NCBI GenBank assembly: GCA_002719885.1
Contig: PBFH01000043.1
Span: 1-37,069, forward strand
Reading direction: 5' to 3'
Length of the DNA: 37,069 bases
From: Rhodospirillaceae bacterium
GTDB taxonomy: Bacteria; Pseudomonadota; Alphaproteobacteria; MPNO01; UBA2964
The notes below the pieces were generated by a model. It was not told the origin of the DNA, did not search any database, and saw nothing but the letters and a program-made list of their open reading frames with translations. Positions 14,244 to 17,980 of the stretch are shown here, in pieces (position 1 is the first letter of the stretch; the number at the start of each line of letters is the position of its first letter). The translations under genes and the position numbers were made by a program.

Positions 14244-14948
14244 TCATTTAAAATTAATTAACTGAGAGGAAGGAGATAAATTAATTTCATCAATGTTTGT
14301 TCCAGCTCTGGTATTCAAAATTTCTACAACTATTTTTGCAACATCTTCGGGTTCTATGGCATTATTTTCATATTGACCGGGTTCAAAATTTAAAGTTTCA
14401 AAAAATGGAGTTCTCACTAAGCCAGGATTTATAAGACATACTCTTACGCCAGAGGTACGAATCTCATCTCGAAGAGCCTGAACGAATCCCCTCAAACCAA
14501 ACTTAGCAGTTGCATAAAGCGTCGCGTTTTTTTTTCCAGCAAGCGCCGATTCAGAACCCATAAAAATGATATCGCCAGCACCCTTTCTTTTTAAATAAGT
14601 TATAAGGTGACGACATAATATAATCTGAGAGACTAGATTAGTAATTAGAAAATTCTTGATCTGTAATGATGAAAAATTCTCTAGATGCTTAAAGTCACCA
14701 TATCCAGCATTACCAATAAAAATACTGATATCTGGATATTCATTCAACAAACCGTGAACCATGGTTTCAGTGTTTTCGATATCTGATAAATCGACAGTAA
14801 TTGGGTGATAATTACCATATCGAGGCTTAAATTTACCGTGGTCACGGGCTAAACCTATGACATGGTGGCCATTATTTAGCAAAGCTTCAGTAATTGCTTG
14901 GCCTATACCACTAGAGCTTCCAGTGACTAGTGCCGTTTTATTTATCAA
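14244..14948 (-). CDS. SDR family NAD(P)-dependent oxidoreductase
   Basis: 234 aa from a TTG start with AGGA 10 bases upstream. It is a classical short-chain dehydrogenase: cofactor loop TGSSSGIG (9-16), NAG (80-82), catalytic Ser132, Tyr145 and Lys149 (YATAK), then NPGLVRTPFF. Asp35-Asp-like acidic selectivity is not obvious (LARDHGK), so the NADP/NAD choice is open. It is the last gene of a four-gene minus-strand operon, 19 bases after the SPL-like radical SAM gene, suggesting it acts on the same substrate. Confidence 0.92.
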   Translation of the reverse strand: MINKTALVTGSSSGIGQAITEALLNNGHHVIGLARDHGKFKPRYGNYHPITVDLSDIENTETMVHGLLNEYPDISIFIGNAGYGDFKHLENFSSLQIKNFLITNLVSQIILCRHLITYLKRKGAGDIIFMGSESALAGKKNATLYATAKFGLRGFVQALRDEIRTSGVRVCLINPGLVRTPFFETLNFEPGQYENNAIEPEDVAKIVVEILNTRAGTNIDEINLSPSSQLINFK

Positions 14949-14967
14949 CGTTTTTTCCTATGTATTT

Positions 14968-15972
14968 TTATACTGCACATCGAAAAATCTTGTTCTGGGT
15001 GGTATATTTATTTAGTTCATTTTTTATGAATTTGGACATTAATTCTTCTATTTCGGTACCATAAGAAATAATTCCAGCTTTTTCCTTCATAGGGAAGGAA
15101 AATAACTTATCATTCGGGTGCAGGGTTAAAATTTTCTTATACATATTTTTTGGAAACCTTAGGGGCCCGTAGCTCACGGAATGCAGGTTGCGAGGGTTTA
15201 AGTCGTGCATGATCTCCGCTATGAGTTCGGAATACATCGTTTCCCAGTCTGCGCAATATATCAAAGGATCAAACCTGAGACCCACCGACCAACCTGCGTT
15301 GGCTAACTGTTTTAGTGCATTTATTCTGTGGGAAATACTCGGTGCTGTTTTATCAAGAATAGTCGCTATTTTTTTCGGGGATAAACTGAAGGCAACTATG
15401 CAATTCGTCACCGGTTCTCGTTTCATTAAGGGACTTGTCACGATGCTTTTTGTTCTTAATTCTAGTTCGATAGGTGGATGGTCAGAAAAAAAATCTAGAG
15501 TGTGATTTGCAAAATTACTTATTTTTTCAAATGCTAAAGAGTCGCAATCGTAACCAGAAAAGAAAGTAAGAGAATTATCCGGGTATTTTTCAATAGTTCT
15601 TGATATAGCTTTAAAAAAATCTTCGTAGTTTACAAATAATATGTAGTGCGCTGAAGAATACATCCCCTGTAAAAAGCAGTACCTGCAGTCGTAAATACAA
15701 TTATACATATGAGAAAAATAAAAATTTAAATTGGAATTCATGCCGAATCCAGCTGGTGCGGGCAAAACGAAATTTTCATGTTTCCTGGCTAATATCAGAC
15801 AAGGATTTTTCTTTTGCAGTCGAAAGTTTTGATGTCTTTTGTTAAATATTTCCTGATAGCGGCTTATCGCTATTAATTGTGCACGTGGAAGAGATTTCAG
15901 TATGTGTCTTGTTGTTGGGTGGTCATCTATAGCTTCTTCTATAAAAATCGTTTCTATCACGTCAATGTCCAA
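14968..15972 (-). CDS. spore photoproduct lyase-like radical SAM protein
   Basis: 334 aa from a TTG start with GAGG 9 bases upstream, overlapping the preceding gene by 16 bases. The [4Fe-4S] motif is CxxxCxxC (Cys92, Cys96, Cys99) in FSHMYNCIYDCRYCFLQGMY, the context typical of the SPL family. FVNYEDFF and LRFDPLIY also match SPL. Spore photoproduct lyase reverses thymine photodimers in spores, but nothing here suggests sporulation, so this is a non-spore SPL homolog whose substrate is not established. A Cys lies in the last four residues. It is embedded in an operon with a glycosyltransferase, a nucleosidase-like protein and an SDR. Confidence 0.9.
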   Translation of the reverse strand: MDIDVIETIFIEEAIDDHPTTRHILKSLPRAQLIAISRYQEIFNKRHQNFRLQKKNPCLILARKHENFVLPAPAGFGMNSNLNFYFSHMYNCIYDCRYCFLQGMYSSAHYILFVNYEDFFKAISRTIEKYPDNSLTFFSGYDCDSLAFEKISNFANHTLDFFSDHPPIELELRTKSIVTSPLMKREPVTNCIVAFSLSPKKIATILDKTAPSISHRINALKQLANAGWSVGLRFDPLIYCADWETMYSELIAEIMHDLNPRNLHSVSYGPLRFPKNMYKKILTLHPNDKLFSFPMKEKAGIISYGTEIEELMSKFIKNELNKYTTQNKIFRCAV

Positions 15973-16793
15973 TCTTTAACCTCATCTAAAAGCTCCTTTT
16001 TTAAATTGTTTATTAGAGCTTTTGCTGAATTTGCTGGAGGCTGGACTTCATCGAATTTTCTATCAGGGAAGGTGGATCGCCACTTTCGGTAAACCATTTC
16101 GAAATTATGTCTATTACTCTCTGTAAAGTGAAAATTTGCCATTACTTCTTTTACTTCTTCAGGCATTCTTAATCTTTTTGCTTCATCGTCCACGATTTCT
16201 TCAATTTGCATCAAAAGATTGGAAATGATTTCCATATTATTTTCTAGAAGCCCTTTTACAAATTTTTTGGAATTGTCAAATTTTGTCATTGGTGTGTCGG
16301 ATACAACTTTGAAAACAAATGTAAGTTCATTACAGCTAAATAATGGGGCGATCTCGCAGAAACCAGCGGCTTCCATATCATAAAGAACGTTAGAGGGAAA
16401 TTTGAATTCAGGTTTACTTACCGTCACTAAAGGTGAGCCCTCTACATACTTTGATAGCCGAAGCCCGGGAAAGAAAGCTTGATTATTCTGCCAGTTAAGT
16501 ACTTTTAAAGCTTGATAAATTTTTCCAATTGGTTCCTTAAAAAAACCAGCTACGCCGATATTTATCCAAGCGGCATAATTTTCAATGCTTAATAGTGTCT
16601 TCAAATAGGTTGCTGCAGCTGCAGACCTGGCGGGGCCAATACCGGAAATTACCAATGCGTGACCAGTTTCATGATTTATATAGACCGGAAATATTAACTC
16701 GTTTGAGATAATTTTCATTCTGTACGCTTCTATTAGCGGCCTAGCTTCGGCGTGCAGCGCTATAACCCAACAAAATTTAATTTTTATTTCCAC
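15957..16793 (-). CDS. MTA/SAH nucleosidase-like protein with C-terminal extension
   Basis: 278 aa from a GTG start (GGAT 9 bases upstream) inside the end of the glycosyltransferase gene. Residues 1-180 follow the nucleoside phosphorylase/MTAN fold: SGIGPARSAAA, NIGVAGF, DMEAAGFCEIA (139-149, carrying the catalytic Glu position) and VVSDTP (163-168, catalytic Asp). The purine-site sequences are looser than in true MTAN. About 90 charged helical residues follow, an extension I do not recognise. Removing methylthioadenosine or 5'-deoxyadenosine, products of SAM chemistry, would suit the radical SAM gene beside it. That link is inferred. Confidence 0.8.
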   Translation of the reverse strand: MEIKIKFCWVIALHAEARPLIEAYRMKIISNELIFPVYINHETGHALVISGIGPARSAAAATYLKTLLSIENYAAWINIGVAGFFKEPIGKIYQALKVLNWQNNQAFFPGLRLSKYVEGSPLVTVSKPEFKFPSNVLYDMEAAGFCEIAPLFSCNELTFVFKVVSDTPMTKFDNSKKFVKGLLENNMEIISNLLMQIEEIVDDEAKRLRMPEEVKEVMANFHFTESNRHNFEMVYRKWRSTFPDRKFDEVQPPANSAKALINNLKKELLDEVKDWTLT

Positions 16794-17682
16794 AAACTAT
16801 CCTATCAAAATGATGTTGTTCTGCTAAAAGAGCCTTTTCCCAATGGGACTTTTTGCTTGTCAGTTCTTGTGCAAAAGTAATTTTATCCCTTTTTTTGGCG
16901 CCACCTATTAAAATACCAAGTTTGAAAATTAGTTCCCTGAGTGTTGCTTGTCTCTTTACCTCGCTTAAATTTTTTTCTCGAGCGAGCTTTTCAAGAGCAT
17001 AAATACGAAACCTATCCATGCCCCAATAGGCCTTAGACAGTTGGTCATTGTGTCCTCCAAATTTAATTACTAATGGCTCATTTAGAAAATGAACGTCTTC
17101 GTATGCAGAGAACCTTAACCAAAAATCATAATCCTCACATGCCCTTAATTTTTCATCGAAATATCCAAAATCTTCAAAAACGGATTTATGGATAACGGTT
17201 GAACTTGGTGAAATACAACACAACTTAAGGGATCTATAAAAAATATTACCCCCATTTTTGGCATGTTTTTTCTGGGCGTTTACTCTGACACCATTCCTAA
17301 TCCATATCTCATCAGTGTGACTTATACGACAGGGGAAGTTTTTTGCCTCTAGTGTAGAAATTTGTCGTTCTAATTTATTTTTTAACCAATGATCATCAGA
17401 GTCTAATAAAGCGATATATTCGTATCTTGAAGACTTTATACCAATATTTCTTGCTGCACTAACCCCCTGATTTTTTTGGTAAATATATCTTAGAGCTGTT
17501 TTATTTTGAAGAGAATCAGAAAAACCCTTTTCTCGCAGAATTTGCCAAGTATTGTCAACAGAACCATCATCCACGACGATGATTTCATCTGCTTGTTTTG
17601 TTTGATTCATCACCGAATCAACACAATTGGAGATCAAATCCTGTCGGTTAAAAGTTGGAATAATTACGGAGACTCTTGTCAT
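16777..17682 (-). CDS. family 2 glycosyltransferase
   Basis: 301 aa. A GT-A fold with the N-terminal SVIIPTFNRQDLISNCVDSV, VVDDGSVDNT (37-46) and the metal-binding DSDDHW (94-99), then CEDYDFWLRF, the usual acceptor-side acidic motif. GT2 enzymes transfer a sugar from a nucleotide-sugar donor. There are no membrane helices, so it is a soluble cytoplasmic enzyme. It is the first of four packed genes; its 3' end overlaps the nucleosidase-like gene by 17 bases. A terminator of a mini-gene lies 79 bases upstream. Confidence 0.92.
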   Translation of the reverse strand: MTRVSVIIPTFNRQDLISNCVDSVMNQTKQADEIIVVDDGSVDNTWQILREKGFSDSLQNKTALRYIYQKNQGVSAARNIGIKSSRYEYIALLDSDDHWLKNKLERQISTLEAKNFPCRISHTDEIWIRNGVRVNAQKKHAKNGGNIFYRSLKLCCISPSSTVIHKSVFEDFGYFDEKLRACEDYDFWLRFSAYEDVHFLNEPLVIKFGGHNDQLSKAYWGMDRFRIYALEKLAREKNLSEVKRQATLRELIFKLGILIGGAKKRDKITFAQELTSKKSHWEKALLAEQHHFDRIVCGNKN

Positions 17683-17760
17683 CCTTCTGTTGCAACCCTC
17701 ATTCAGTTTGTTGGTATTAAGATTTTTATTGTTGATATAGGTAATTATGGGTTTTCATTT

Positions 17761-17794
17761 AAAAAAATGAAGGGCCACCCTATGGTGACCCTTC
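17761..17794 (-). terminator. rho-independent terminator of the mini-gene
   Basis: On the minus strand GAAGGGTCACC pairs with GGTGGCCCTTC (11 bp, one G-U) around a 4-nt loop, followed by ATTTTTTT. It ends the transcript of the 25-codon ORF and lies between it and the glycosyltransferase operon, so it could also act as a partial terminator governing read-through. Confidence 0.85.
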
Positions 17795-17836
17795 CATTGT
17801 CCGGAACGGTCCTGGCAAGGACCTAAAAATATCACG

Positions 17837-17914
17837 TTAGCCGAAGTATTCCTCGTCAGCGGTGATAATCCAAATTCTTGCAGTCCGGGACCACGCGCTT
17901 AGACAATGAGACAT
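17837..17914 (-). CDS. 25-residue peptide gene (candidate precursor or leader peptide)
   Basis: GAAAGGAGGT (17921-17930) is a near-perfect anti-16S match six bases before the ATG. The peptide begins MSHCLSAWSR and ends ITADEEYFG. It has two Trp, one Cys and a run of Ile in the middle, and is neither a signal peptide nor a membrane helix. A promoter with 17-bp spacing lies upstream and a strong terminator downstream, so this is a complete transcription unit of about 185 nt. It sits just before a glycosyltransferase/radical SAM/SDR operon on the same strand. A substrate peptide for those enzymes is possible, as in pqqA loci; a regulatory leader or small RNA is the alternative. No family recognised. 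Confidence 0.6.
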   Translation of the reverse strand: MSHCLSAWSRTARIWIITADEEYFG

Positions 17915-17951
17915 TGGACCACCTCCTTTCGTTTGTTGAAATCTAGTAAAT

Positions 17952-17980
17952 ATTATGAATTTTCGTGTTGATCCTCGCAA
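17952..17980 (-). promoter_or_regulatory. sigma-70-like promoter of the mini-gene
   Basis: On the minus strand TTGCGA (17975-17980) and CATAAT (17952-17957) are separated by exactly 17 bp. Transcription would begin near 17945, about 30 bases before the ATG. Each hexamer is close to consensus (TTGACA, TATAAT). Confidence 0.55.

Follow-up and report, generated by a model that had tools for sequence, protein, structure and literature searches.

To our knowledge, the function of spore photoproduct lyase (SPL) homologues outside spore formers is not settled. Two described pathways offer points of comparison for the SPL homologue considered here, which is encoded together with three further enzymes. 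In the assembly of C35 hopanoids, HpnH adds an adenosyl radical and HpnG removes adenine; ribosylhopane is reduced by an unidentified enzyme, and HpnI then glycosylates (PMC12583986). In apramycin biosynthesis, the radical SAM dehydratase AprD4 is paired with the NADPH-dependent reductase AprD3 (PMC5461906). The window, i.e., the 37,069-nt stretch of Rhodospirillaceae contig PBFH01000043.1 that was analysed, carries a four-gene cassette that is like the hopanoid side-chain enzymes in combining a radical SAM enzyme with functions for adenine removal, reduction and glycosyl transfer, whereas HpnH belongs to a different radical SAM branch from the SPL-like enzyme of the cassette. AprD4/AprD3 resemble the cassette in the pairing of a radical SAM enzyme with a reductase, and lack a nucleosidase, unlike the cassette. 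A short element upstream of the four genes corresponds to the CC2171 sRNA (Rfam RF01867), and the locus is, on balance, likely to be best explained as two unrelated neighbours, an sRNA gene and a biosynthetic operon.

The four enzyme genes constitute a genuine conserved operon on the minus strand (positions 17682-14244). A GT2 glycosyltransferase gene (17682-16777; 301 aa, ATG start; PF00535, E 9e-33) is followed by the genes for an MTAN/PNP-superfamily nucleosidase-like protein with a C-terminal helical extension (16793-15957; 278 aa, GTG), the SPL-like radical SAM enzyme (15972-14968; 334 aa from TTG; PF20903, E 5.5e-20) and a short-chain dehydrogenase/reductase (SDR; 14948-14244; 234 aa, TTG; PF00106, E 3e-38). 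The coordinates agree with the layout in the preliminary description, i.e., overlaps of 17 and 16 bp, a 19-bp gap and three non-ATG starts. The 16-bp overlap between the nucleosidase and SPL-like genes is probably a start-site artefact, since the SPL-like homologues begin at 'MIET...', the residue that corresponds to an internal GTG at 15960 in the window gene, and the 4-bp GTGA overlap that this codon would create is common among homologous loci. Judged from these homologues, GTG at 15960 is probably the true start.

Among 84,980 species genomes searched there were at least 413 confirmed SPL-like relatives; the best 80 of these were read and, with the window, its sister species and two distant relatives, make up the 84 loci compared. 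The co-occurrence of SPL-like, nucleosidase-like and SDR genes anticipated in the preliminary description was borne out. By tblastn, which tolerates overlapping ORFs, 61 of the 84 loci have them on one strand with GT2 and in an unchanged order, and stricter ORF clustering gives 54. A GT2 orthologue is the first cassette gene in those 61 loci, while 16 loci, mostly from methanotrophs, contain SPL-SDR only (tblastn) and the other seven hold different subsets, some of them cut by contig ends. The SDR gene directly follows the SPL-like gene in 79/84 loci. The cassette spans several phyla, with flanking genes that differ between groups, and incomplete sets turn up in records that bear the labels Neomarinimicrobiota (L127) and Omnitrophica (L117). 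Its hosts, known mostly from MAGs and single-cell genomes, include SAR116, marine Rhodobacteraceae and methanotrophs, and many of them are marine. Pairwise ortholog distances of the four families correlate (r 0.74-0.89), as co-inheritance would predict, with a contribution from shared phylogeny. In four of the methanotroph genomes searched, a GT2 orthologue (362-377 bits) lies apart from SPL-SDR, and G428 has a nucleosidase orthologue near the detached GT2 orthologue. The cassette is thus real and widespread, and no description of this four-gene set was found in the literature searched.

The surroundings of the cassette vary in several lineages. In a Methylobacter genome (L202:2833-6678), the orthologues of the nucleosidase and of GT2 are separated by about 2 kb and stand away from SPL-SDR. 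In SAR116 loci (L078:3295-4273 and similar), the genes directly upstream of GT2 encode a GFA-domain protein and two small proteins that match no Pfam family. In G277 (L181:6513-11949), genes for a TobZ/NodU-type O-carbamoyltransferase and a TPR protein are inserted between the nucleosidase and SPL genes; the carbamoyltransferase gene overlaps the nucleosidase gene by 4 bp, and the inserted genes overlap or abut those of the cassette. FolE is a neighbour in a single case (L097/L204) and the sepiapterin-reductase match of the SDR is one of many SDR matches, so a pterin link was rejected. A role in anti-phage defence was likewise discarded, as no PADLOC defence model matched any of the four enzymes.

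The catalytic residues of the partner enzymes are conserved. The DSDD and ED motifs of GT2 are invariant in 25/25 family members, as are Ser132/Tyr145/Lys149 of the SDR in 26/26. The nucleosidase-like protein of the window alone has no Pfam match; eight of 29 homologues match PF01048 and the family profile finds MTA/SAH nucleosidases. Its AF2 model (pLDDT 92.6) matched MTAN structures (Foldseek E 3e-12), and the residues aligned with MTAN E12, E174 and D197 are kept in 28-29 of the 29 homologues. The protein thus shares its modelled fold and these three residues with MTA/SAH nucleosidase and futalosine hydrolase, but differs from them in having about 16% identity, an extra C-terminal region and scores that miss every curated cut-off. 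An MTAN-type fold with the catalytic Glu/Glu/Asp is indicated by the model, and the activity is predicted.

The SPL-like enzyme shares with spore photoproduct lyase (TIGR04070, PF20903, PDB 4fhc) the fold, as its predicted model matches with TM 0.78 (region 92-107 round the cluster being of low confidence), and the radical SAM Fe-S cluster motif CxxxCxxC, which is invariant, including a Tyr within it, in 37/37 homologues. It departs from the lyase in several respects. In an HMM alignment to 4k9r/4fhc, the column of the catalytic hydrogen-donor Cys (C140/C141) is occupied by Tyr in 37/37 homologues, while C143, two residues from that column and a possible donor in its place, and C332 are present in 36/37. 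A GYDxDSLA motif is invariant, the score against the curated SPL equivalog TIGR04070 is 89.7 bits, far below the cut-off of 400, and an SDR or nucleosidase gene neighbours the SPL-like gene in 84/84 loci. Pfam assigned the protein to the SPL family only and detected no SPASM or RRE domain.

The element upstream of GT2 (17938-17771, minus strand) gave a full-length match to the RF01867 covariance model (model positions 1-159; 66.5 bits, E 6e-14 to 2e-13). The score is under the Rfam gathering score of 75, as it is for most alphaproteobacterial members found; since relatives with the same layout (L014, L026, L029, L143 and L152) exceed the gathering score, the sub-threshold value reads as divergence. 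The window copy contains an extended Shine-Dalgarno segment AAAGGAGGTGGTCCAA (17914-17929), a near-complement of the 16S rRNA 3' end, a P1 helix whose 5' arm CAUUGUC (17902-17908) pairs with the 3' arm GACAAUG (17795-17801) in both the Rfam consensus and the MFE fold, and an intrinsic terminator (17794-17769; an 11-pair stem, then T7) that lies 86 nt ahead of the GT2 start codon, all on the minus strand. Aligned copies keep a constant layout of AAAGGAGGTGATCCAG, start codon, CATTGTC, variable middle, GACAATG and terminator, and the RNA fold has a z of -2.6. Both arms of P1 have changed together in relatives, to CATGGTT/GACCATG in L160-L162 and to CATTGCC/GGCAATG in L153; these pair changes are few and were judged by eye, with one mismatch in some relatives. 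The enzyme block and the element are each conserved beyond chance.

The element is almost certainly an independent sRNA gene. It has a promoter-like site, a 5' segment capable of pairing with the 16S rRNA 3' end, and a terminator of its own after the closing helix. Its 5' 14-16 nt (17914-17929 in the window; also in L014-L031 and L136-L162) complement the 16S 3' end over a length that far exceeds a usual Shine-Dalgarno sequence. At the 16S 3' end of G040 stands CTGGATCACCTCCTTT, whose reverse complement is identical to AAAGGAGGTGATCCAG, the segment's family form. Of the other genomes searched with the 16S 3'-end pattern, only G040 gave a true 16S end, most matches being CC2171 itself; the window's own genome yielded no 16S 3' end for comparison with AAAGGAGGTGGTCCAA. 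CC2171 might associate with 30S subunits or with sRNAs that carry CCUCC. The literature searched contains listings of CC2171 only, with no function given.

The preliminary description had read this element as a peptide gene with its terminator, preceding its maturases in the order of pqqA-type loci, i.e., a RiPP-like locus in which a 25-aa peptide is modified by the radical SAM enzyme, the glycosyltransferase and the SDR. A short ORF of 25 codons, MSHCLSAWSRTARIWIITADEEYFG (17914-17837, minus strand), preceded by a strong Shine-Dalgarno sequence and followed by a hairpin-plus-T terminator, is indeed located directly upstream on the same strand in the window as well as in its sister species (G006), but the link drawn to the enzymes fails. 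These two are the only cassette loci of the 84 that have the element, and the remaining 82 are conserved clusters without the upstream ORF, which refutes the proposed peptide-maturase order. The EEYFG-like ending expected ahead of the enzymes elsewhere is not a family trait either, -YFG being confined to the window and its sister species. The amino-acid sequence of the mini-ORF is not conserved among relatives, its length ranges from 14 to 56 codons with no conserved core, and no family in Pfam or NCBIfam matches the peptide. With the helix codons left out, pN/pS pooled over 33 close pairs is 1.03, and the mini-ORF is without purifying selection on amino acids. An ATG or GTG start is present in 46/46 copies, a count biased by the start codon contained in the search pattern.

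The distribution of the element is also separate from that of the enzymes. Clusters without the ORF and copies of the element away from the enzymes are the two outcomes that the preliminary description had named as refuting the peptide link, and both were observed. A 26-base pattern around the start codon occurs in 18/61 relatives and 33/385 alphaproteobacterial genomes (reversed control, 0 matches), mostly in genomes that lack the cassette enzymes and have other genes around the element. Of the same 385 genomes, 96 contain CC2171, whereas eight contain the SPL-like enzyme; the window's genome is the only one with clear copies of both, G262 combines a weak CC2171 match (E 7e-4) with a divergent SPL match, and the other six SPL-like carriers have no CC2171 match. 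As only 13 of the 96 genomes with a match exceed the Rfam gathering score, the RF01867 family probably extends far beyond its curated members. The Rfam match, the separate distributions, the 82 loci without the element, the pN/pS value and the P1 pair changes make it almost certain that the element is an independent CC2171 sRNA gene, unrelated to the enzyme operon, and that the mini-ORF encodes no conserved peptide. Given in addition the lack of a SPASM or RRE domain in the radical SAM protein, a RiPP reading retains virtually no probability, and the locus of peptide plus maturases does not exist as proposed. What stands of the peptide-modification proposal is the co-occurrence of the enzymes. 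The case illustrates that a RiPP precursor gene can be mimicked by a structured sRNA in which a short ORF follows a strong Shine-Dalgarno sequence.

The operon itself is quite likely a biosynthetic cassette rather than a repair system. This reading is favoured by the 61 ordered loci with different flanks, the distance correlation, the detached methanotroph orthologues, the insertion in G277 and the conserved MTAN residues, and the enzyme classes suggest that the product is probably a small glycosylated metabolite. In the scheme that we propose, the SPL-like enzyme would generate a 5'-deoxyadenosyl radical and use it in one of two ways, to place the adenosyl group on an acceptor or to rearrange a sugar or nucleoside; base removal by the nucleosidase would follow, the SDR would reduce the resulting carbonyl and GT2 would glycosylate the alcohol. 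This specific order of steps is possible rather than probable and is drawn by analogy with hopanoid side-chain assembly, and adenosyl attachment by an SPL-branch enzyme is pure analogy, as we know of no member of this branch that attaches an adenosyl group. In 16 loci SPL-SDR stands with no nucleosidase or GT2 gene next to it, so the four reactions need not follow one another strictly, and the nucleosidase might do no more than clear 5'-deoxyadenosine. That an SPL-branch radical SAM enzyme serves here to make a metabolite that derives from an adenosyl or ribosyl group and is both reduced and glycosylated is a reading that we consider possible but not probable. The window's own genome, which is 97% complete, has no HpnH above the cut-off, and neither have 15 of the remaining 22 cassette genomes, which leaves only seven of 23 with HpnH; this distribution rules out hopanoids as the general substrate of the cassette, and the acceptor in the window's genome must differ from them.

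The main alternative is a deoxygenation like that of AprD4/AprD3, in which the SPL-like enzyme would dehydrate a diol and the SDR would reduce the resulting ketone, with GT2 and the nucleosidase acting before or after. It fits SPL-SDR as the most constant pair, in which the SDR nearly always follows SPL and in 16 loci is alone with it, AprD4 and AprD3 themselves give it a precedent (PMC5461906), and the G277 operon includes a carbamoyltransferase of the aminoglycoside-tailoring type. Both the tie between AprD4 and the SPL branch and the substrate are drawn by analogy, and we regard this scheme as possible but not probable. Repair of UV or other nucleic-acid lesions, which the preliminary description had also considered, would have the SPL-like enzyme reverse a pyrimidine lesion while its partners process damaged nucleosides. 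The kinship in fold and sequence to spore photoproduct lyase and the marine habitat of many hosts speak for it; the low equivalog score and the partner genes do not, as it is not evident what GT2, the SDR and the one O-carbamoyltransferase would contribute to reversing a lesion. These partners and the changed Cys column make DNA repair unlikely, even with the caveat that the near-invariant C143, two residues off, could donate hydrogen.

Salvage of queuosine or another 7-deazapurine is a further reading, in which the nucleosidase would free the base and the radical SAM lyase would trim it, as QueK and QueL do. QueL is a queuine lyase that acts in salvage (PMC11130926). In G049 and G355 (L011:3250-7749 and L182:2688-7225), queC-, queE- and queD-like genes, together with an EF-hand gene, lie immediately upstream of GT2-nucleosidase-SPL. 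This adjacency is limited to one lineage, in which the de novo genes would make salvage redundant, and the known salvage pathway has neither GT2 nor SDR, so that we consider this reading very unlikely.

The biosynthetic reading has consequences beyond the window. The addition of an adenosyl group followed by the action of a nucleosidase is a logic used for hopanoids and in the futalosine route to menaquinone. If the proposed scheme is true, the cassette would represent a further use of this logic, in SAR116, marine Rhodobacteraceae and methanotrophs. Among cultured methanotrophs, Methylotuvimicrobium buryatense 5G has SPL-SDR (L121) and Methylobacter tundripaludum SV96 has SPL-SDR together with the GT2 orthologue (L134/L200), which makes them hosts in which the product could be sought. 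One large branch of SPL homologues, with more than 400 candidate loci, is tied to fixed partner enzymes, which suggests that its members serve biosynthesis rather than DNA repair.
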